From Dehalococcoidales bacterium (lineage in GTDB: Bacteria > Chloroflexota > Dehalococcoidia > Dehalococcoidales > UBA5627): 7,230 nt of DNA. The stretch's first letter is position 1, and every line of letters begins with the position of its first letter. The position numbers were made by a program, and so were the translations under genes. Of this stretch, positions 1,913-7,230 are shown piece after piece. The notes beneath the pieces were generated by a model. The model was not told the origin of the DNA. It saw only the letters and a program-made list of their open reading frames with translations, and did not search any database. The DNA lies in assembly GCA_012719115.1 (NCBI GenBank), contig JAAYAZ010000263.1, positions 1 through 7,230 of the forward strand, written 5' to 3'.

Positions 1913-3490
1913 ATGTCTATACAGCTTTACGACACAACTCTGAGAGACGGAGCGCAAAAAGAAGGGATATCCTTTTCTGTTGTCGATAAGCTGAATATTG
2001 CCGGTAAACTTGATGAGCTGGGTATTCATTACATAGAAGGCGGATGGCCCGGTTCAAATCCCAAAGATATCGAATTTTTTAATAAAGCACATGAATTGAA
2101 TTTAAAAAATGCCAAACTGGTTGCTTTTGGAAGCACCAGAAGGGCAAACGGAAAAGCAGAGGACGACGCGACACTGGCTTCACTTGTTGAAGCTAAAACC
2201 GATATTGTCACACTTGTTTCAAAATGTTCAGCCCGACAGGTAACGCAGGTGCTGGAAACCACCCTGGAAGAAAATATAAATATGATAACGGATTCAACCG
2301 AATACCTGAAAGGCAAAGGGATATCCGTTTTTATTGATGCCGAACATTTTTTCGATGGTTTTAAAGATAATCAACAATATGCTCTGGATGTTCTTATCGC
2401 TTCCGAAAAAGCGGGGGCTGATTGTCTGGTATTATGCGACACGAACGGAGGCACTCTGCCGGATGAAGCGTTTGACGCTGTTAAAAAAGTGTGCGAGGTA
2501 ACTTCGATACCAATAGGTATTCATGCTCATAATGACAGCGAACTTGCGGTTGCAGTTACGCTTGCCGCAGTGAAAGCCGGCGCTACACATGTACAGGGGA
2601 CAATTAACGGTTTCGGAGAGAGATGCGGAAATGCCAACCTTTGTTCAATCATTCCCAATCTTAAACTTAAAATGGACATAGATTGCATCAGCGATAACAA
2701 TCTGACAAAACTCTCTGAAGTAGCCAGTTATATAAATGAAACGGCTAATCTTAAACCAAATCCGTCACTGCCATATGTCGGTAGCAGTGCTTTCAGCCAC
2801 AAAGCAGGATTACATGTTTCCGGTTTAAGCAAGTGGTCAGGCAGTTACCAGCATATAGACCCGGCACTGGTAGGCAATAAATCACGCATGTTAATATCCG
2901 AGCTGTCAGGCAGATCCAATATTGTTCACAGAGCCAGTCAAATCGGTGTTTCATTACCTCCCAAGGGGAAGGAAGCGCAGCAATTGCTGGAGAAGGTCAA
3001 GGACCTTGAAAGCCGTGGTTTTCAATATGAAAATGCCGAAGCATCCTTCGATTTGCTGGTTCACAGAGCCCAGTCAGATTATCAATCACCTTTTGAACTG
3101 GTCGATTTCATGGTAATAATAGAAAGCCGGAGGCGTTCACCCACAACTCATAATAGTGACGAAGCGCTTTCCGAAGCAATGGTAAAAGTCAGAGTTGACG
3201 GTCAAATAATGCATACTGCATCAGAGGGTAACGGCCCGGTCAATGCTATGGACAAAGCCTTGAGGAAAGCATTGATACAATCATATCCACAGCTTTCCTG
3301 CATTCAGCTTGTGGACTATAAAGTACGCATACTGGATTCGAAAAATACTGCATCACAGGTGCGGGTGCTTATAGAATCTACCGACGGTGCAGACCACTGG
3401 AACACAGTAGGAAGCTCGGCAAATATTATCGAGGCAAGCTGGCTGGCACTGGCAGACAGCCTCGAGTACTGGCTGATAAAGAATAAATAG
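1913..3490 (+). CDS. cimA: (R)-citramalate synthase
   Basis: Condenses pyruvate and acetyl-CoA to citramalate, the first step of the threonine-independent route to 2-oxobutyrate and isoleucine. It is 525 residues long, the usual length for the CimA branch of the isopropylmalate/homocitrate synthase family. The TIM-barrel domain (about 1-280) carries LYDTTLRDGAQ (5-15, with metal ligand D12), IEGGWPGSNPKD (41-52), HAHND (204-208, metal-binding histidines) and GFGERCGNANL (233-243). The IEGGWPGSNP segment is characteristic of this branch rather than of LeuA. FSHKAGLH (294-301) lies in the linker. The C-terminal LeuA-type regulatory dimer domain (about 370-525) contains GNGPVNAMDKALRKAL and the terminal NIIEASWLALADSLEY block. 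That domain usually binds the feedback inhibitor; isoleucine here is inference. It starts 12 bp after leuB, with a weak AAGG ribosome site at 1899-1902. Confidence 0.93.
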   Translation: MSIQLYDTTLRDGAQKEGISFSVVDKLNIAGKLDELGIHYIEGGWPGSNPKDIEFFNKAHELNLKNAKLVAFGSTRRANGKAEDDATLASLVEAKTDIVTLVSKCSARQVTQVLETTLEENINMITDSTEYLKGKGISVFIDAEHFFDGFKDNQQYALDVLIASEKAGADCLVLCDTNGGTLPDEAFDAVKKVCEVTSIPIGIHAHNDSELAVAVTLAAVKAGATHVQGTINGFGERCGNANLCSIIPNLKLKMDIDCISDNNLTKLSEVASYINETANLKPNPSLPYVGSSAFSHKAGLHVSGLSKWSGSYQHIDPALVGNKSRMLISELSGRSNIVHRASQIGVSLPPKGKEAQQLLEKVKDLESRGFQYENAEASFDLLVHRAQSDYQSPFELVDFMVIIESRRRSPTTHNSDEALSEAMVKVRVDGQIMHTASEGNGPVNAMDKALRKALIQSYPQLSCIQLVDYKVRILDSKNTASQVRVLIESTDGADHWNTVGSSANIIEASWLALADSLEYWLIKNK

Positions 3491-3492
3491 CA

Positions 3493-4398
3493 TCAACTCT
3501 GCTTTGTCCAGAAATTGAGGCTCAGGTATTTCCAGCCACCGTCGGGAAGCACTGCCACAATGTTTCCTTCTTCGATGCTATTTGCGATTTTAACTGCCTG
3601 ATGTATCAAAGCACCTGAGGACTGCCCGCAAAAAATCCCTTCAGTTCTCAACAGTGTTTTGGCAGCTTCGTTAGCCTGCGTGCTGGTTACGCATACCCTC
3701 TCGCTGACAAAACTCAAATCCAAAACGGGTGGTATGAATGTTTCAAGGCATCTTAGTCCCTGAATGCAATCTCCGGGCGGCGGCTCTACTCCGATTGTCT
3801 TAACTTGTGGGAAATTTTCTCTTAGCCTTTTAGTTACTCCGACAATTGTCCCGCCCGTTCCGATACCGGCAATAAGGTAATCGATTTTATCGTAAGGAAA
3901 GTCATCAAGTATTTCCACACCGGTAGTTTCATAATGAGCTATTGGATTGGCGGGATTGGCAAACTGGTCGGGCATGTAATATTTATCGCTTTTAGAAACC
4001 ATTTCCTTAACCGTGTTCATTGAACCGAGCACCCCTTTATCGGCTTCCGTTAAAATAAGCTCAGCCCCGAAAACCCTTATAAGCTGCTGCCTTTCTTTAC
4101 TCATATTTTCCGGCATAACAATTGTGACATTGTAACCCATTTTTTTACCCAGCCAAGCCAAAGATATTCCGGTATTTCCGCTGGTCGCTTCGATAATAGT
4201 TTTATCCTCATTAAGCTGACCTGTTTTTACAGCTGTATCCAGCATATATTTCGCTACGCGGTCTTTAGTGCTGGCGCTACCTCCCAGGTTTTGCCCTTCC
4301 AGTTTTGCTAATATATGAACTTTTTTATTTTTGACAATATCGGGCAGTTCTACCAATGGTGTATGTCCAAGGGCTTCGAGAGCATTATTGAAATACAT
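3493..4398 (-). CDS. cysM: cysteine synthase, CysM-like (PLP-dependent)
   Basis: Fold-type II PLP enzyme that makes L-cysteine from an activated serine (O-acetylserine or O-phosphoserine) and a sulfur donor. I start it at the ATG at 4398 (301 residues) because GGAGG at 4407-4411 sits 8 nt upstream. The frame stays open to a TTG at 4413, but that codon overlaps the Shine-Dalgarno. Motifs are ALGHTPLVEL (9-18), SASTKDR with PLP lysine K45, TSGNTG (72-77), MPENMSKERQQL (95-106), QFANPANPIAHY (145-156), the phosphate loop GTGGT (180-184), EGIFCGQSSGA and a C-terminal DGGWKYLS. The last motif and GLR (R216) look like CysM of Mycobacterium and E. coli rather than CysK. R216 aligns by eye with mycobacterial Arg220, which recognises O-phosphoserine. 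Around K45 the loop NLGGSASTKDR is two residues longer than the common NPGGSVKDR. Convergent with cimA, 2 bp apart. Confidence 0.9.
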   Translation of the reverse strand: MYFNNALEALGHTPLVELPDIVKNKKVHILAKLEGQNLGGSASTKDRVAKYMLDTAVKTGQLNEDKTIIEATSGNTGISLAWLGKKMGYNVTIVMPENMSKERQQLIRVFGAELILTEADKGVLGSMNTVKEMVSKSDKYYMPDQFANPANPIAHYETTGVEILDDFPYDKIDYLIAGIGTGGTIVGVTKRLRENFPQVKTIGVEPPPGDCIQGLRCLETFIPPVLDLSFVSERVCVTSTQANEAAKTLLRTEGIFCGQSSGALIHQAVKIANSIEEGNIVAVLPDGGWKYLSLNFWTKQS

Positions 4399-4423
4399 TG
4401 CATTATCCTCCAATATTGCGTAG

Positions 4424-4452
4424 ATTATAACATCAATAGTATCAGGATTAAA
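4424..4452 (-). promoter_or_regulatory. candidate sigma70-type promoter for the cysteine synthase gene
   Basis: On the minus strand a perfect TATAAT (plus positions 4424-4429) is preceded by TGT, giving an extended -10 (TGNTATAAT). Seventeen bases further upstream lies TTTAAT (4447-4452), a weak -35. Transcription would begin close to 4417, leaving a leader of about 20 nt that contains the GGAGG ribosome site. The assignment is by consensus matching only. Confidence 0.55.
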
Positions 4453-4474
4453 AATATCTAATACAGCTTTATGA

Positions 4475-4501
4475 TTGCAAACTAATTTGTTATAGTATAA
4501 A
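4475..4501 (+). promoter_or_regulatory. candidate promoter for the hypothetical two-gene operon
   Basis: TTGCAA (4475-4480) and TATAAA (4496-4501) are reasonable -35 and -10 elements, but their spacing is only 15 bp, shorter than the usual 17. The predicted start lies about 35 nt before the downstream ATG. The site is divergent from, and does not overlap, the candidate cysteine synthase promoter. No better pair is visible in this short intergenic stretch. Confidence 0.4.
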
Positions 4502-4540
4502 TGTAACCATTAAAATAATAAATAGTAAAGGATTGGAGTT

Positions 4541-5131
4541 ATGGCTGATATCAAAAGCTTTCGCGAAATTGCTATGGAGAAGATTGCCGCAATCGAAGAG
4601 GCCTCTGAAGAAGAGCAATTAAAGTGGAAATTCATACCCGAAGGCGAGAAGCTGGCAGCGGTATGTCTGGATAAAGGTAAGGAAATCAAATCCGAAATAG
4701 AGAAGTATGATGAGAAGTTAAGGCTATTCGTTTTACAGGGGGCAGAGAGGGTATTTATCAGTAATATCAACCTGCCTAAAAACGATATTCTTAAGGAGAA
4801 AAATGAGAAGGCCATGAATAACCTGCTTTTTATAAAAAAGGATAAAAAGGCAGTAACGGATGTATTCGACAAGATTAAATATATCTTTGAACATTACAAC
4901 ACGCAGGGCAAACAACAGAAAGAACAATCCTACGAACTGCTAAAAAACGATTTTCAGAACAAAGTAGAGCAGGCACTTGCACAAAAGGTTGGAGCGGGTA
5001 ACAATATCGAGCTGAATATTGAAAGTTTGCCCCAGTTCCAGGAAGAGTGGAGTAAGGTTTTAGTTCAAATCGATAGTCAGTATAACAACTATCTGAATGA
5101 ATATAAACAAAATCTGAAAGAAATAAAATAA
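4541..5131 (+). CDS. hypothetical protein, charged and helical (196 aa)
   Basis: I do not recognise a named family with certainty. The 196-residue protein is rich in Lys, Glu and Gln, has a single cysteine (C42), no signal peptide and no hydrophobic membrane-length segment, so it is probably cytosolic. The start of the protein (5-30) and residues 80-150 look strongly helical, with stretches that could form coiled coil. A short run at 58-78 (EKLRLFVLQGAERVFISNINL) is more hydrophobic. The ATG is supported by AAAGGA at 4527-4532 with an 8-nt spacer; the nearer GGAG at 4535-4538 is too close to be the main site. The gene is followed after 10 bp by another hypothetical gene, so the two probably form an operon. 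The length and the ribosome site argue for a real gene rather than chance. Confidence 0.8.
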   Translation: MADIKSFREIAMEKIAAIEEASEEEQLKWKFIPEGEKLAAVCLDKGKEIKSEIEKYDEKLRLFVLQGAERVFISNINLPKNDILKEKNEKAMNNLLFIKKDKKAVTDVFDKIKYIFEHYNTQGKQQKEQSYELLKNDFQNKVEQALAQKVGAGNNIELNIESLPQFQEEWSKVLVQIDSQYNNYLNEYKQNLKEIK

Positions 5132-5141
5132 ATCCATTTTT

Positions 5142-5858
5142 ATGCGAAAGACAATGAGCAACTACAACGATAGAATAGAATACGCAGCAGACAATACTAA
5201 AATAATAAGATTTCCAAAGCAGAAATTGTCTACTTTCGGGCAAACCAATATCAAATATTATATGGTTACCGAACCTATATACGGCGAGTTTGAAGCAACT
5301 GATGCTGAAACGATAGTCAGACAGGGCTATGTCATAGCTGAAAAGCCCAGAATAATAACACCATATTATATGTCCCGATTGGAAGGATTCAGTTCTGAAG
5401 CAAAGAATTATTTTTCTAAAATCGGCCAATTATACGGCGCCGACTCGCCCGGAATATACTATTCTTATAGCAATCAATCGAAAAATCTCTCCATTCTTTC
5501 AGAATGCATTGAATCAGTTGTGGATAAACTTAATGAAGAAATCGAGGGCAAAGCAGAAAATCTATCAGCCATCATAGTAGGGCAGGATGACCTTTGGGAC
5601 GTTTCCCTTTTAAAATTCATTTACGAACTCACTCAGAGTTCCCTGTATAATAATCTTAACCAATTCGAGGCTATGGGTTTATTAAATATTGATTCTTCGG
5701 GGATACCGAATGATGCCCGATTAATAATAGAAGAGTTATTTGAAAAACTTGCGAGGGGGAAAATTACACCGGGTATTTTGAAAAAAGAATTACAACACTG
5801 GGGATTATTTGAGATATACCAGGACCGCTTTTTTGCTGCTCTGCAATCCGGTAAATAG
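5142..5858 (+). CDS. hypothetical protein with a possible winged-helix-like segment (238 aa)
   Basis: No family name can be given with confidence. The 238-residue protein has no signal peptide or membrane segment. An N-terminal part (about 10-75) looks strand-rich, including TKIIRFPKQ, IKYYMVTEPIYGEF and EKPRIITPYYM. A middle helical part follows (about 115-135). The block DLWDVSLLKFIYELTQSSLYNNLNQFEAMGLLNID (150-184) resembles the helix-helix-recognition helix spacing of winged-helix domains; this is only a by-eye impression. The C-terminus (190-235) is amphipathic helix. The start at 5142 has no clear Shine-Dalgarno. The ATG at 5154 (residue 5, MSNYNDRIEY) has a weak GAAAG just before it and is an alternative. 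It lies 10 bp after the preceding hypothetical gene, and its stop codon abuts the stop of the convergent degV gene. Confidence 0.8.
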   Translation: MRKTMSNYNDRIEYAADNTKIIRFPKQKLSTFGQTNIKYYMVTEPIYGEFEATDAETIVRQGYVIAEKPRIITPYYMSRLEGFSSEAKNYFSKIGQLYGADSPGIYYSYSNQSKNLSILSECIESVVDKLNEEIEGKAENLSAIIVGQDDLWDVSLLKFIYELTQSSLYNNLNQFEAMGLLNIDSSGIPNDARLIIEELFEKLARGKITPGILKKELQHWGLFEIYQDRFFAALQSGK

Positions 5859-6710
5859 CTATTGATAATAAGCCAGCGCAAGTGTGCCTCTCCCGATAGA
5901 ATATCCGATTACGGGACTAACCTCCGTAATAAATAATTCCGTGCAGTTAAACTCTCTTTCCACTTTCTTTTTAAGATTGTTTGCCTCTTCGGATACATCT
6001 GTATGCATTACAGCCATATGAACACTGTTACCTCCGACCTCACGTTTGATTATTTCTAGCATTTTACTAATACCTCGATTGCTGCTTCTGACAGCGCTAA
6101 CAAAATGAACCACTCCGTCAGATATTGTTATTAAAGGCTTAACACCCAGCACTGAACCCATTTGTGAAGCTATTTTTGGGATTCTGCCTGTACGATAGGC
6201 GTGTTCAATAGTGTCAAGAACCAGATATACCTTAACCCTTTCCTTTATTCTTTTTGCAGTACTCAATACACTTGCCAAATCTTTGTTTTGCGCAGCTTGT
6301 TTTGCCGCTTCCATCGCTATAAACCCCTGTGATGCCGTAGCATTCGCTGAATCCAATATCTCAATTTGGGCGTCAGGCACCGCTGTCTTTACATTATCGG
6401 CAGCAATTCTGGCTACATTATATGTAGTGCTCAACTGCGAGGAAACGGTGATACATAATATGTCATAGCCCTTTCTTGCCTTTTCGGTAAATATGTCGAT
6501 ATAGTCAACCGGGTTTGAGGGTGCAGTAGAAAATGAATCCGGGCTTTTTTCCAGAAACCTGTATGCTTCTTTAGAAGATAAGTCGATTCCGTCCCTGTAT
6601 ATAATTCCATTGTAGAGTATTTTCATCGGGACAATCTCTATTTTGTGCTTTTTAGCCTGCTCATGGGTTAAACATGCCACACTGTCCGTAATATCACAGA
6701 CCTGTTTCAT
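5859..6710 (-). CDS. DegV family protein (fatty-acid-binding, FakB-like)
   Basis: DegV proteins bind a fatty acid in a two-domain alpha/beta fold. In Firmicutes (FakB) they present it to the kinase FakA to make acyl-phosphate. The 283 residues match the family length. Visible landmarks are ITDSVACLT (7-15), FSTAPSNPVDY (60-70, equivalent to the T-S-Q-P loop), VSSQLSTTYNVA (89-100), ILDSANATASQGF (118-130), LDTIEHAYRTGRIPK (165-179), LGVKPLI (188-194), VRSSNRGI (207-214) and PVIGYSIGRG (266-275). In typical members the last motif is close to IGxHxGPG. Here His is Ser271 and Pro is Arg274, so ligand carboxylate or phosphate handling may differ. The start ATG has a GGGTGG-like ribosome site 6 nt upstream. 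No FakA/DhaL gene is in the window. It is convergent with the hypothetical operon and divergent from moaA. Confidence 0.9.
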   Translation of the reverse strand: MKQVCDITDSVACLTHEQAKKHKIEIVPMKILYNGIIYRDGIDLSSKEAYRFLEKSPDSFSTAPSNPVDYIDIFTEKARKGYDILCITVSSQLSTTYNVARIAADNVKTAVPDAQIEILDSANATASQGFIAMEAAKQAAQNKDLASVLSTAKRIKERVKVYLVLDTIEHAYRTGRIPKIASQMGSVLGVKPLITISDGVVHFVSAVRSSNRGISKMLEIIKREVGGNSVHMAVMHTDVSEEANNLKKKVEREFNCTELFITEVSPVIGYSIGRGTLALAYYQ

Positions 6711-6764
6711 AGTAAACCACCCAAATAAGACAACATTATACAGGGGATTTATTGTTGCGATTGT

Positions 6765-6792
6765 ATTATATCACAATCTATAGTGTATTCAA
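6765..6792 (-). promoter_or_regulatory. candidate promoter for the DegV-family gene
   Basis: On the minus strand TTGAAT (plus 6787-6792) and TATAAT (6765-6770) are separated by 16 bp. The -10 carries an upstream TGA, giving an extended -10 (TGNTATAAT). This predicts a leader of about 48 nt before the degV ATG. A second TATAAT lies nearer the gene (6735-6740) but lacks a convincing -35. Confidence 0.6.
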
Positions 6793-6818
6793 TCGGGTAT
6801 ATTCATTCCAGTATATTG

Positions 6819-6847
6819 TTGACATGATTCGTATAAAATAGTATATT
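6819..6847 (+). promoter_or_regulatory. strong sigma70-type promoter for the moaA leader
   Basis: A perfect TTGACA (6819-6824) and TATATT (6842-6847, five of six matches to TATAAT) are separated by the ideal 17 bp. Transcription is predicted to begin around 6853-6855, about 37 nt before the riboswitch aptamer, giving a leader of about 240 nt before moaA. A 9-bp direct repeat, AGTATATTG, occurs at 6810-6818 (just upstream of and touching the -35) and at 6840-6848 (covering the -10). Confidence 0.75.
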
Positions 6848-6874
6848 GAACAAAAGTATTCGGTAATCTTAAAA

Positions 6875-6888
6875 AGTTATTAATAACT
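6875..6888. repeat. 14-bp perfect palindrome in the early moaA leader
   Basis: AGTTATTAATAACT is a perfect inverted repeat lying between the predicted transcription start and the aptamer. It is too A/T-rich and loop-free to be a stable RNA hairpin, so a dimeric DNA-binding regulator is the more natural reading. It does not clearly match the published ModE operator, and chance is possible in A/T-rich DNA. Confidence 0.5.
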
Positions 6889-6891
6889 AAA

Positions 6892-6990
6892 CCCTCCGAG
6901 TTGTAAGTGCCTAACAGCTTTATGCTTATGGATTACAGCCGGTTAAGGTATATGGGAAACTTCTATACCGCCCGTGTTTGGAAAGGGGGG
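6892..6990 (+). promoter_or_regulatory. Moco riboswitch aptamer, short (possibly Tuco-type) form
   Basis: This structured leader resembles the molybdenum-cofactor RNA motif that precedes moaA in E. coli and many anaerobes. P1 pairs CCCUCC (6892-6897) with GGGGGG (6985-6990). A hairpin follows, with UUGUAA (6901-6906) on UUACAG (6933-6938), CC (6910-6911) on GG (6930-6931) and AGC/GCU at its tip. Next come GCCGGUUAA and a second hairpin, GGUAUA (6947-6952) on UAUACC (6964-6969). The 3' side reads CGCCCGUGUUUGGAAAGG, closely matching the E. coli GCCUCCCGUAUCUGGAAAGG as I recall it, in the same place after a hairpin and before the P1 3' strand. Only about 37 nt lie between P1 and the GCCGG segment. 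One of the hairpins present in the E. coli aptamer is therefore missing, as in P3-less variants proposed to bind tungsten cofactor. It lies directly upstream of moaA, the usual partner. Confidence 0.82.
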
Positions 6991-7021
6991 ATAATATTTT
7001 GTGTTGATTTATTATGCCTCC
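6985..7021 (+). promoter_or_regulatory. antiterminator helix of the moaA riboswitch
   Basis: GGGGG (6985-6989) can pair with CCUCC (7017-7021). After a single G/G mismatch (6990/7016), AUAAUA (6991-6996) pairs with UAUUAU (7010-7015). The result is eleven base pairs with a 13-nt loop. The helix uses the 3' strand of aptamer P1 and the 5' arm of the downstream hairpin, so it is mutually exclusive with both. It is the expected ligand-free form; the pairing is read directly, the role is inferred. Confidence 0.65.
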
Positions 7022-7039
7022 TTCGGGAGGTATTTGTTT
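7014..7039 (+). terminator. conditional intrinsic terminator of the moaA riboswitch
   Basis: AUGCCUCC (7014-7021) pairs with GGAGGUAU (7026-7033) through eight pairs, one of them G-U, capped by the very stable C(UUCG)G tetraloop. It is followed by TTTGTTT (7033-7039), a T-run interrupted by G. The hairpin lies 24 nt after the aptamer and 57 nt before moaA. It can form only when the antiterminator is not used. The interrupted T-run leaves some doubt about how efficient termination would be. Confidence 0.7.
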
Positions 7040-7086
7040 GAGTAGCATTTGTAAGACAAAATAACAATCAATATCAAAAATAAGCC

Positions 7087-7091
7087 GGAGG
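7087..7091 (+). promoter_or_regulatory. moaA Shine-Dalgarno, complementary to two leader elements
   Basis: GGAGG sits only 4 nt before the moaA ATG. The surrounding CGGAGG (7086-7091) is perfectly complementary to CCUCCG at the P1 5' strand (6893-6898). GGAGGC (7087-7092) is perfectly complementary to GCCUCC in the terminator 5' arm (7016-7021). Sequestration of the ribosome site is therefore possible in addition to transcription control. Confidence 0.6.
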
Positions 7092-7095
7092 CATC

Positions 7096-7230
7096 ATGAC
7101 ACAACTTTTTGATACTTATCATCGCAATATCAATTATATGCGTATTTCTATTACAGACCGTTGCAATATGAGATGCATATACTGCAATTCACACCTCGCA
7201 CCGCATTTAAATCACGATGAGATATTAAGA
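7096..7230 (+). CDS. moaA: GTP 3',8-cyclase MoaA, N-terminal fragment (3' end outside window)
   Basis: Radical-SAM enzyme that converts GTP to 3',8-cyclo-GTP, the first step of molybdopterin (Moco/Tuco) synthesis. Forty-five codons are visible, running off the window edge. The opening, [30 protein letters not shown], contains the MoaA-typical R.INYLRIS.TDRCN.RC.YC block. The CxxxCxxC cysteines that bind the first 4Fe-4S cluster are at residues 23, 27 and 30. After the last cysteine the usual MPxxG is replaced by NSHLAPHL, then a NHDEIL segment matches the family's H.(D/E)IL region. The C-terminal second cluster motif is outside the window. The riboswitch upstream supports the identification. 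Confidence 0.9.

Follow-up and report, generated by a model that had tools for sequence, protein, structure and literature searches.

At the end of a 7,230-nucleotide stretch of Dehalococcoidales DNA (the window; contig C258 of the 1.25 Mb, 84.7% complete genome G000), moaA, a gene for synthesis of the molybdenum/tungsten cofactor, is preceded by a structured RNA. How could this RNA govern the gene, and which metal form of the cofactor does it sense? Its family can be assigned directly: RF01055 of Rfam matches with 53.3 bits against a gathering cut-off of 36 (E 6.9e-11), the whole model (positions 1-135) is covered, and the element lies 5' of moaA, which starts at 7096. At E values up to 1, the window gave no match to any other Rfam family. 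The internal CCTAA and TATGG halves of P2 are presumably receptor-like. An earlier, sequence-only reading had proposed a Moco-family RNA before moaA, to be checked by a covariance search with RF01055, and the significant match confirms it. The same reading called the riboswitch complete and of Moco type. The core and P1 (six pairs, one of them U-G) are seen as described, but the absence of P3 had been overlooked. The window RNA therefore falls outside the P3-bearing, Moco-type subclass and has the P3-less form of the Tuco type, which Regulski et al. 2008 (PMC2408646) assigned to the tungsten cofactor. With a probability of roughly 0.8, a figure that excludes the metal, we regard the window RNA as a P3-lacking member of RF01055 and a probable OFF-type transcriptional riboswitch for moaA. 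The switch itself is ordinary and expected, and the RNA type is already known.

Table 1. Features of the moaA leader in the window, with the evidence for each
Feature	Position	Strand	Evidence
Sigma-70-like promoter, TTGACA-17-TATATT	6819..6847	+	11 of 12 consensus matches
Moco/Tuco RNA aptamer (RF01055), P3-lacking form	6882..7004	+	cmscan
P1 5' strand, CCCTCC	6892..6897	+	Rfam alignment; pairing in 98.3% of 60 cells from 10 leaders
P2 hairpin with internal CCTAA/TATGG halves	6900..6939	+	Rfam alignment
Junction at the usual place of P3, P3 hairpin absent	6940..6946	+	13 model positions deleted in the Rfam alignment; 16 nt spacing
P4 hairpin, GAAA tetraloop at 6956-6959	6947..6969	+	Rfam alignment
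P1 3' strand, GGGGGG, common to P1 and antiterminator	6985..6990	+	Rfam alignment, folds, leader alignment
Antiterminator hairpin, 6985-6989/7017-7021 and 6991-6996/7010-7015	6985..7021	+	-12.6 kcal/mol locally; in the ligand-free minimum-energy fold
Intrinsic terminator-like hairpin, ATGCCTCC-TTCG-GGAGGTAT	7014..7033	+	Scan; -11.5 to -12.0 kcal/mol; 4 of 6 genus leaders
Interrupted U-rich tail, TTGTTTGAGT	7034..7043	+	Terminator scan
Shine-Dalgarno-like GGAGG of moaA	7087..7091	+	Read from the sequence
Start of moaA, 45 codons up to the contig end	7096..7230	+	TIGR02666, 49.1 bits on the fragment

The promoter is the best of 17 such sites in 3400-7230, where shuffled sequences lead to an expectation of 12.7. 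Its two elements, TTGAC[AT] and TAT[AC]TT, recur with at most one base changed upstream of all six moaA leaders of the genus set, which consists of the window (G000) and five genus-mates (G001-G005). The moaA fragment scores below the whole-protein cut-off of TIGR02666; the full-length genus homologue L045 reaches 364.7 bits against that cut-off of 284.05, and four full MoaA homologues of the genus score 360-365 bits. Behind moaA comes moaC in G001, G002, G003 and G005, the four genus-mates with enough sequence downstream (208.3 bits to TIGR00581 in G002, cut-off 141.5); by analogy, the window switch probably also governs moaC. Elsewhere in the window, two adjacent reading frames of 196 and 238 amino acids (4541-5131 and 5142-5858) have no Pfam match; they are flanked by a cysteine synthase-like gene of the PALP family on one side and a DegV gene on the other.

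The pairings behind the proposed control are largely as the sequence-only reading drew them. The antiterminator has the 11 pairs claimed for it, formed around a single G-G mismatch (6990/7016), so that only five of the six bases said to pair between 6985-6990 and 7016-7021 do so; the UUCG-capped terminator is present as a stem of eight pairs. Since bases 6985-6990 are common to P1 and the antiterminator, and 7014-7021 to the antiterminator and the terminator, P1 and the terminator exclude the antiterminator, as had been stated. In sequence and predicted folds this is the arrangement of a transcription-attenuating OFF riboswitch, whose terminator arm also serves an antiterminator in competition with P1. 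Shuffles lead one to expect 3.1 terminator sites in 3400-7230 and 2 were found, so the hairpin taken singly does not exceed chance; the antiterminator segment, taken slightly longer than 6985-7021, has a z-value of -4.4 against 60 dinucleotide shuffles.

Predicted energies fit an ON default which the ligand must overturn. The ligand-free minimum of 6854-7040, at -52.5 kcal/mol, includes the antiterminator, and forcing P1 and the terminator on the same segment gives -42.8 kcal/mol, 9.7 above the minimum. When the terminator 3' arm is not yet made (6854-7024), the antiterminator state stands at -42.7 against -34.1 kcal/mol for the P1 state. Taken locally, the antiterminator and terminator hairpins are about equal in energy. 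The two states are also nearly equal in a longer fold, 6854-7130 (-61.7 vs -61.2 kcal/mol), which concerns the stage after polymerase has passed the decision point. The cost of P1 would have to be met by the ligand, tertiary contacts or folding kinetics. An AU helix at about 6994-7009/7066-7081, which appears in the fold of 6854-7100, was rejected, being by eye not kept in G002 and G003.

We propose that without ligand the antiterminator, as the stable predicted fold, would let polymerase read into moaA. The ligand would be a metal-loaded molybdopterin cofactor; its binding would close P1 and take the G-run away from the antiterminator, the freed CCTCC (7017-7021) would pair with GGAGG (7026-7030), and transcription would end in the U-rich tail near 7034-7040. 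That the cofactor turns moaA off by transcription had been suggested before. We infer the same rather than see it directly: an OFF-type attenuator is likely, and its arrangement recurs in relatives.

Conservation is what supports the terminator, because the hairpin alone is not beyond chance. A scan recovers it in four of the six genus leaders (G000, G002, G003 and G005), which keep the hairpin, the arms and the spacing; the following 45 nt or so differ in G002 and G003 and are close to G000 in G005. The UUCG loop is not conserved and is replaced by UUUG, UGCG and others in relatives. The G001 terminator has one broken stem pair. The moaA leader of G004 (L047; C53:9699-9823) has no such terminator platform and a ribosome site close behind the RNA, so that this gene must be controlled in another way or have lost the control. 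In this respect two of the five genus-mates depart from the window.

A broader comparison draws on 194 RF01055 hits, those listed under stricter filters from overlapping sets of 61 and 393 genomes, out of a total of at least 194. They occupy 185 stretches from 135 genomes, tandem RNAs having a stretch in common; two (G058 C43 and G003 C102) score below the RF01055 cut-off, and one, in which no P1 3' strand was recognised, does not enter the terminator scan or the shuffle z-values. Ten of the 17 listed moaA leaders, from four families, were aligned, leaving out G004, four leaders of family f9 and the two P3-bearing ones. In this alignment, a check that the sequence-only reading had proposed, all 50 cells of the antiterminator core are paired. 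Covariation does not appear: neither P1 nor the antiterminator core has a compensatory change, none being available because the strands are nearly invariant. Covariation was accordingly dropped as a proof. With the antiterminator partner slid by +3 columns, 96% of cells are still paired, so the pairing count does not discriminate. Together with the interrupted U-tract, the broken stem of G001 and the missing platform of G004, the lack of compensatory change makes the earlier description of a readable mechanism an overstatement.

Antiterminator segments have a mean z of -2.23, with 11 of 13 below -1, in 13 of the 15 P3-lacking moaA leaders (G001 and G004, which have no scanned terminator, are out, and the value for G055 was taken on an inner, wrong hairpin). 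The mean is -0.47 for P3-bearing TupA-like leaders (n=16) and -1.20 for all 112 segments, and the one P3-bearing moaA leader that was scored has +1.05. The best fold of G032 does not pair the P1 3' strand with the terminator arm. CTCC is the partner of the P1 3' strand. It occurs in the 5' half of 61 of the 117 terminator-like hairpins found within 60 nt of an aptamer among the listed hits, with GGAG in 3 of 117, an effective number below 117 because many loci are related; distant hairpins of the same stretches, deduplicated, have CTCC and GGAG in 15 of 284 each. The nearest named MoaA relatives of the genus-mates are metagenome genomes of Dehalococcoidales and Dehalococcoidia. Scanning the 80 nearest MoaA loci of named relatives gave RF01055 above its cut-off at 12 and no RF01055 at 68; 11 of the 12 RNAs lie within 300 nt before moaA and have P3-lacking lengths (119-124 nt), and at least four of these 12 loci coincide with the genus set, which leaves little independent evidence. 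For the f9 moaA leaders, automatic gene starts directly behind P1 had at first suggested translational control; this reading was rejected, as the MoaA sequences point to likely starts at a greater distance, where weak hairpins are found.

Could the window leader act on the ribosome instead? The arm 7014-7021 might mask the Shine-Dalgarno region and so gate translation, since GGAGGCAT at 7087-7094 is its perfect 8-base complement, the predicted accessibility of the site differs between the two states, and the ribosome site of the E. coli Moco RNA lies in P1 according to Regulski et al. (PMC2408646). Any GGAGG site, however, matches a CCTCC arm. The match is weaker in G003 (GGAAGC), by eye no GGAGG precedes the start in G031, G055, G059, G056 or G032, and of the two states it is the one with P1 that is predicted to leave the site more accessible, opposite to repression by a ligand; we consider translational control very improbable here. 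A decaying platform, with a real aptamer and termination too weak to exert much control, would match the U-tract, G001 and G004. Yet four genus leaders keep their hairpin, arms and spacing while the sequence just behind differs in two of them, and moaA leaders of other families have U-richer terminators, which makes decay an improbable account as well. A transcriptional OFF switch thus remains our reading of the platform, and the metal is a separate matter.

The spacing between P2 and the P4 loop is bimodal among the 194 listed hits, with 15-19 nt in 109 and at least 29 nt in 85; the window belongs to the short class. We sorted the genes downstream into single-linkage clusters, with representatives checked by profile. 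Counted as P3-lacking/P3-bearing, the listed hits precede MoaA in 15/2 cases, WtpA-like genes in 10/4, AOR in 4/0, formate dehydrogenase (FDH) in 1/6, a permease only in 7/4 (11 hits) and other genes in 22/26 (48 hits). The count for TupA is 48/32, where TupA means TupA-like, as the representative has 158.7 bits against a cut-off of 400; for ModA it is 2/11, seven of the 11 P3-bearing hits coming from the genus of the window and two from one tandem stretch. P3 loss is therefore common before moaA (15 of 17 listed) and tungsten-type genes (62 of 98) and rare before ModA and FDH (3 of 20). The contrast between ModA plus FDH (3/17) and TupA plus WtpA plus AOR (62/36) has p 0.0001 by loci, and p 0.011 when counted by family and gene class (3/8 vs 34/12). 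The P3/tungsten trend of 2008 recurs in this class. Exceptions exist: TupA- or WtpA-like genes lie behind 36 of the listed P3-bearing RNAs, and in four genomes of f9 moaA has a P3-lacking RNA and the TupA- or WtpA-like transporters have P3-bearing ones. Of the 15 genomes in which the moaA RNA lacks P3, 14 have a further listed RNA; 11 of these have one or more that are P3-bearing, in 10 of the 11 on an uptake gene class.

G000 itself has two other RF01055 copies, both P3-bearing. The copy on C113 precedes a ModABC-type transporter, with ModA (200.4 bits) and ModB (252.7 bits) above their cut-offs; the ATPase, at 240 bits to WtpC and 224.6 to ModC (both below the respective cut-offs), is slightly closer to WtpC, so the transporter might also carry tungstate. 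AOR, TupA and WtpA have no match in this 84.7% complete genome. Over the six genus genomes AOR is found in three, a TupA-like protein (below the family cut-off) in one and WtpA in none. TIGR01591 identifies the single PF00384 protein of G000 as the alpha subunit of a formate dehydrogenase (851.2 bits, cut-off 666.25). Behind the second copy (L001:1501-1631; C78:9717-9847) lie the genes for the substrate-binding protein of an SsuA/NMT1-like ABC transporter (SsuA_fam 137.3 bits, below the cut-off) and for a permease-like protein, possibly an unrecognised importer of an oxyanion or a cofactor-related compound.

By the P3 rule, we lean slightly towards a window ligand that is Tuco, or both metal forms, rather than Moco alone. 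The same RNA and the same attenuation could also sense Moco or any metal form, with P3 loss not setting the metal, an account to which we give somewhat less than even odds. In its favour, the ModABC-type transporter of G000 stands under a P3-bearing RNA, none of the three tungsten-type genes searched was detected in that genome, and in four f9 genomes the TupA- or WtpA-like transporters have P3-bearing RNAs while moaA has a P3-lacking one. Against it, P3 loss tracks tungsten-type genes across the class, Regulski et al. (PMC2408646) report the same trend, and the ATPase on C113 leaves room for tungstate transport. A further reading, tentative and on balance doubtful, is that P3 in Dehalococcoidales tracks the job of the gene and is not a simple metal code: moaA has P3-lacking RNAs in five families, and in most of the same cells uptake genes have P3-bearing ones, even before tungstate-type transporters. 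If true, two aptamers of different tuning would report on the cofactor pool of one cell, the first shutting down cofactor synthesis and the second metal import. One genome and its genus have P3-lacking (moaA) and P3-bearing (ModABC-type transporter) versions side by side, a natural pair on which to test whether P3 decides between the molybdenum and the tungsten cofactor, as was proposed in 2008.

Several other leaders deserve mention. In seven genus ModA leaders (L003, L038, L039, L041, L042, L043 and L046) the called start lies 77-197 nt from the aptamer end, and a 130-nt scan found no terminator-like hairpin; several have a pyrimidine-rich stretch able, by eye, to pair with the P1 3' strand. 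Theirs is a different, unexplained platform. A DUF364 (putative heavy-metal chelation) protein follows the ModA-class protein behind a P3-bearing RNA at L039:1621-2376, with a matching gene in L041, from a second genus genome (the Pfam assignment was made for the L039 gene). Close pairs of RF01055 RNAs precede TupA-like genes in L122, L077 and L129, a WtpA-like gene in L116, a ModA-class gene in L048 and a PKD-domain gene in L183. At L189:312-1535, a molybdate transporter of the MOT1 type (PF16983) follows an RNA that is P3-lacking by spacing; a very short hairpin could fit into the junction of this RNA.

The E. coli moaA Moco RNA (RF01055) has the same aptamer core, P1, P2, P4 with GAAA loop and place before moaA as the window RNA, and the OFF logic that we infer for the window is alike. 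It differs in having P3 and a ribosome site in P1, as described in PMC2408646, whereas the window lacks P3 and has a terminator-like hairpin downstream. Premature termination at E. coli moaA is described as Rho-dependent in PMC7815308 (see also PMC12121620). Regulski et al. 2008 found 58 of 176 RNAs to be without P3 and tied these to the tungsten cofactor, a proposal resting mainly on gene associations; tungstate evoked no response from the P3-bearing E. coli RNA, and removal of P3 abolished its regulation without switching the metal (PMC2408646). The putative Tuco RNAs of that study resemble the window RNA in lacking P3 and preceding molybdopterin synthesis genes, some with putative intrinsic terminators downstream (PMC2408646); G000 differs in having no detected tungsten marker and two P3-bearing copies. 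Our literature search found no paper that treats P3 or the type of platform in Dehalococcoidales. A close known case comes from three Dehalogenimonas strains, in which a Moco riboswitch precedes moaA and moaC (PMC13390414), where the passages on the riboswitch discuss neither P3 nor the expression platform and the word "tungsten" is not found in the main text. Its target genes and position are as in the window, and the strains likely belong to the same order; family f9 of our comparison may be their group. With these Dehalogenimonas cases, a switch of this kind has already been published for the order (PMC13390414).
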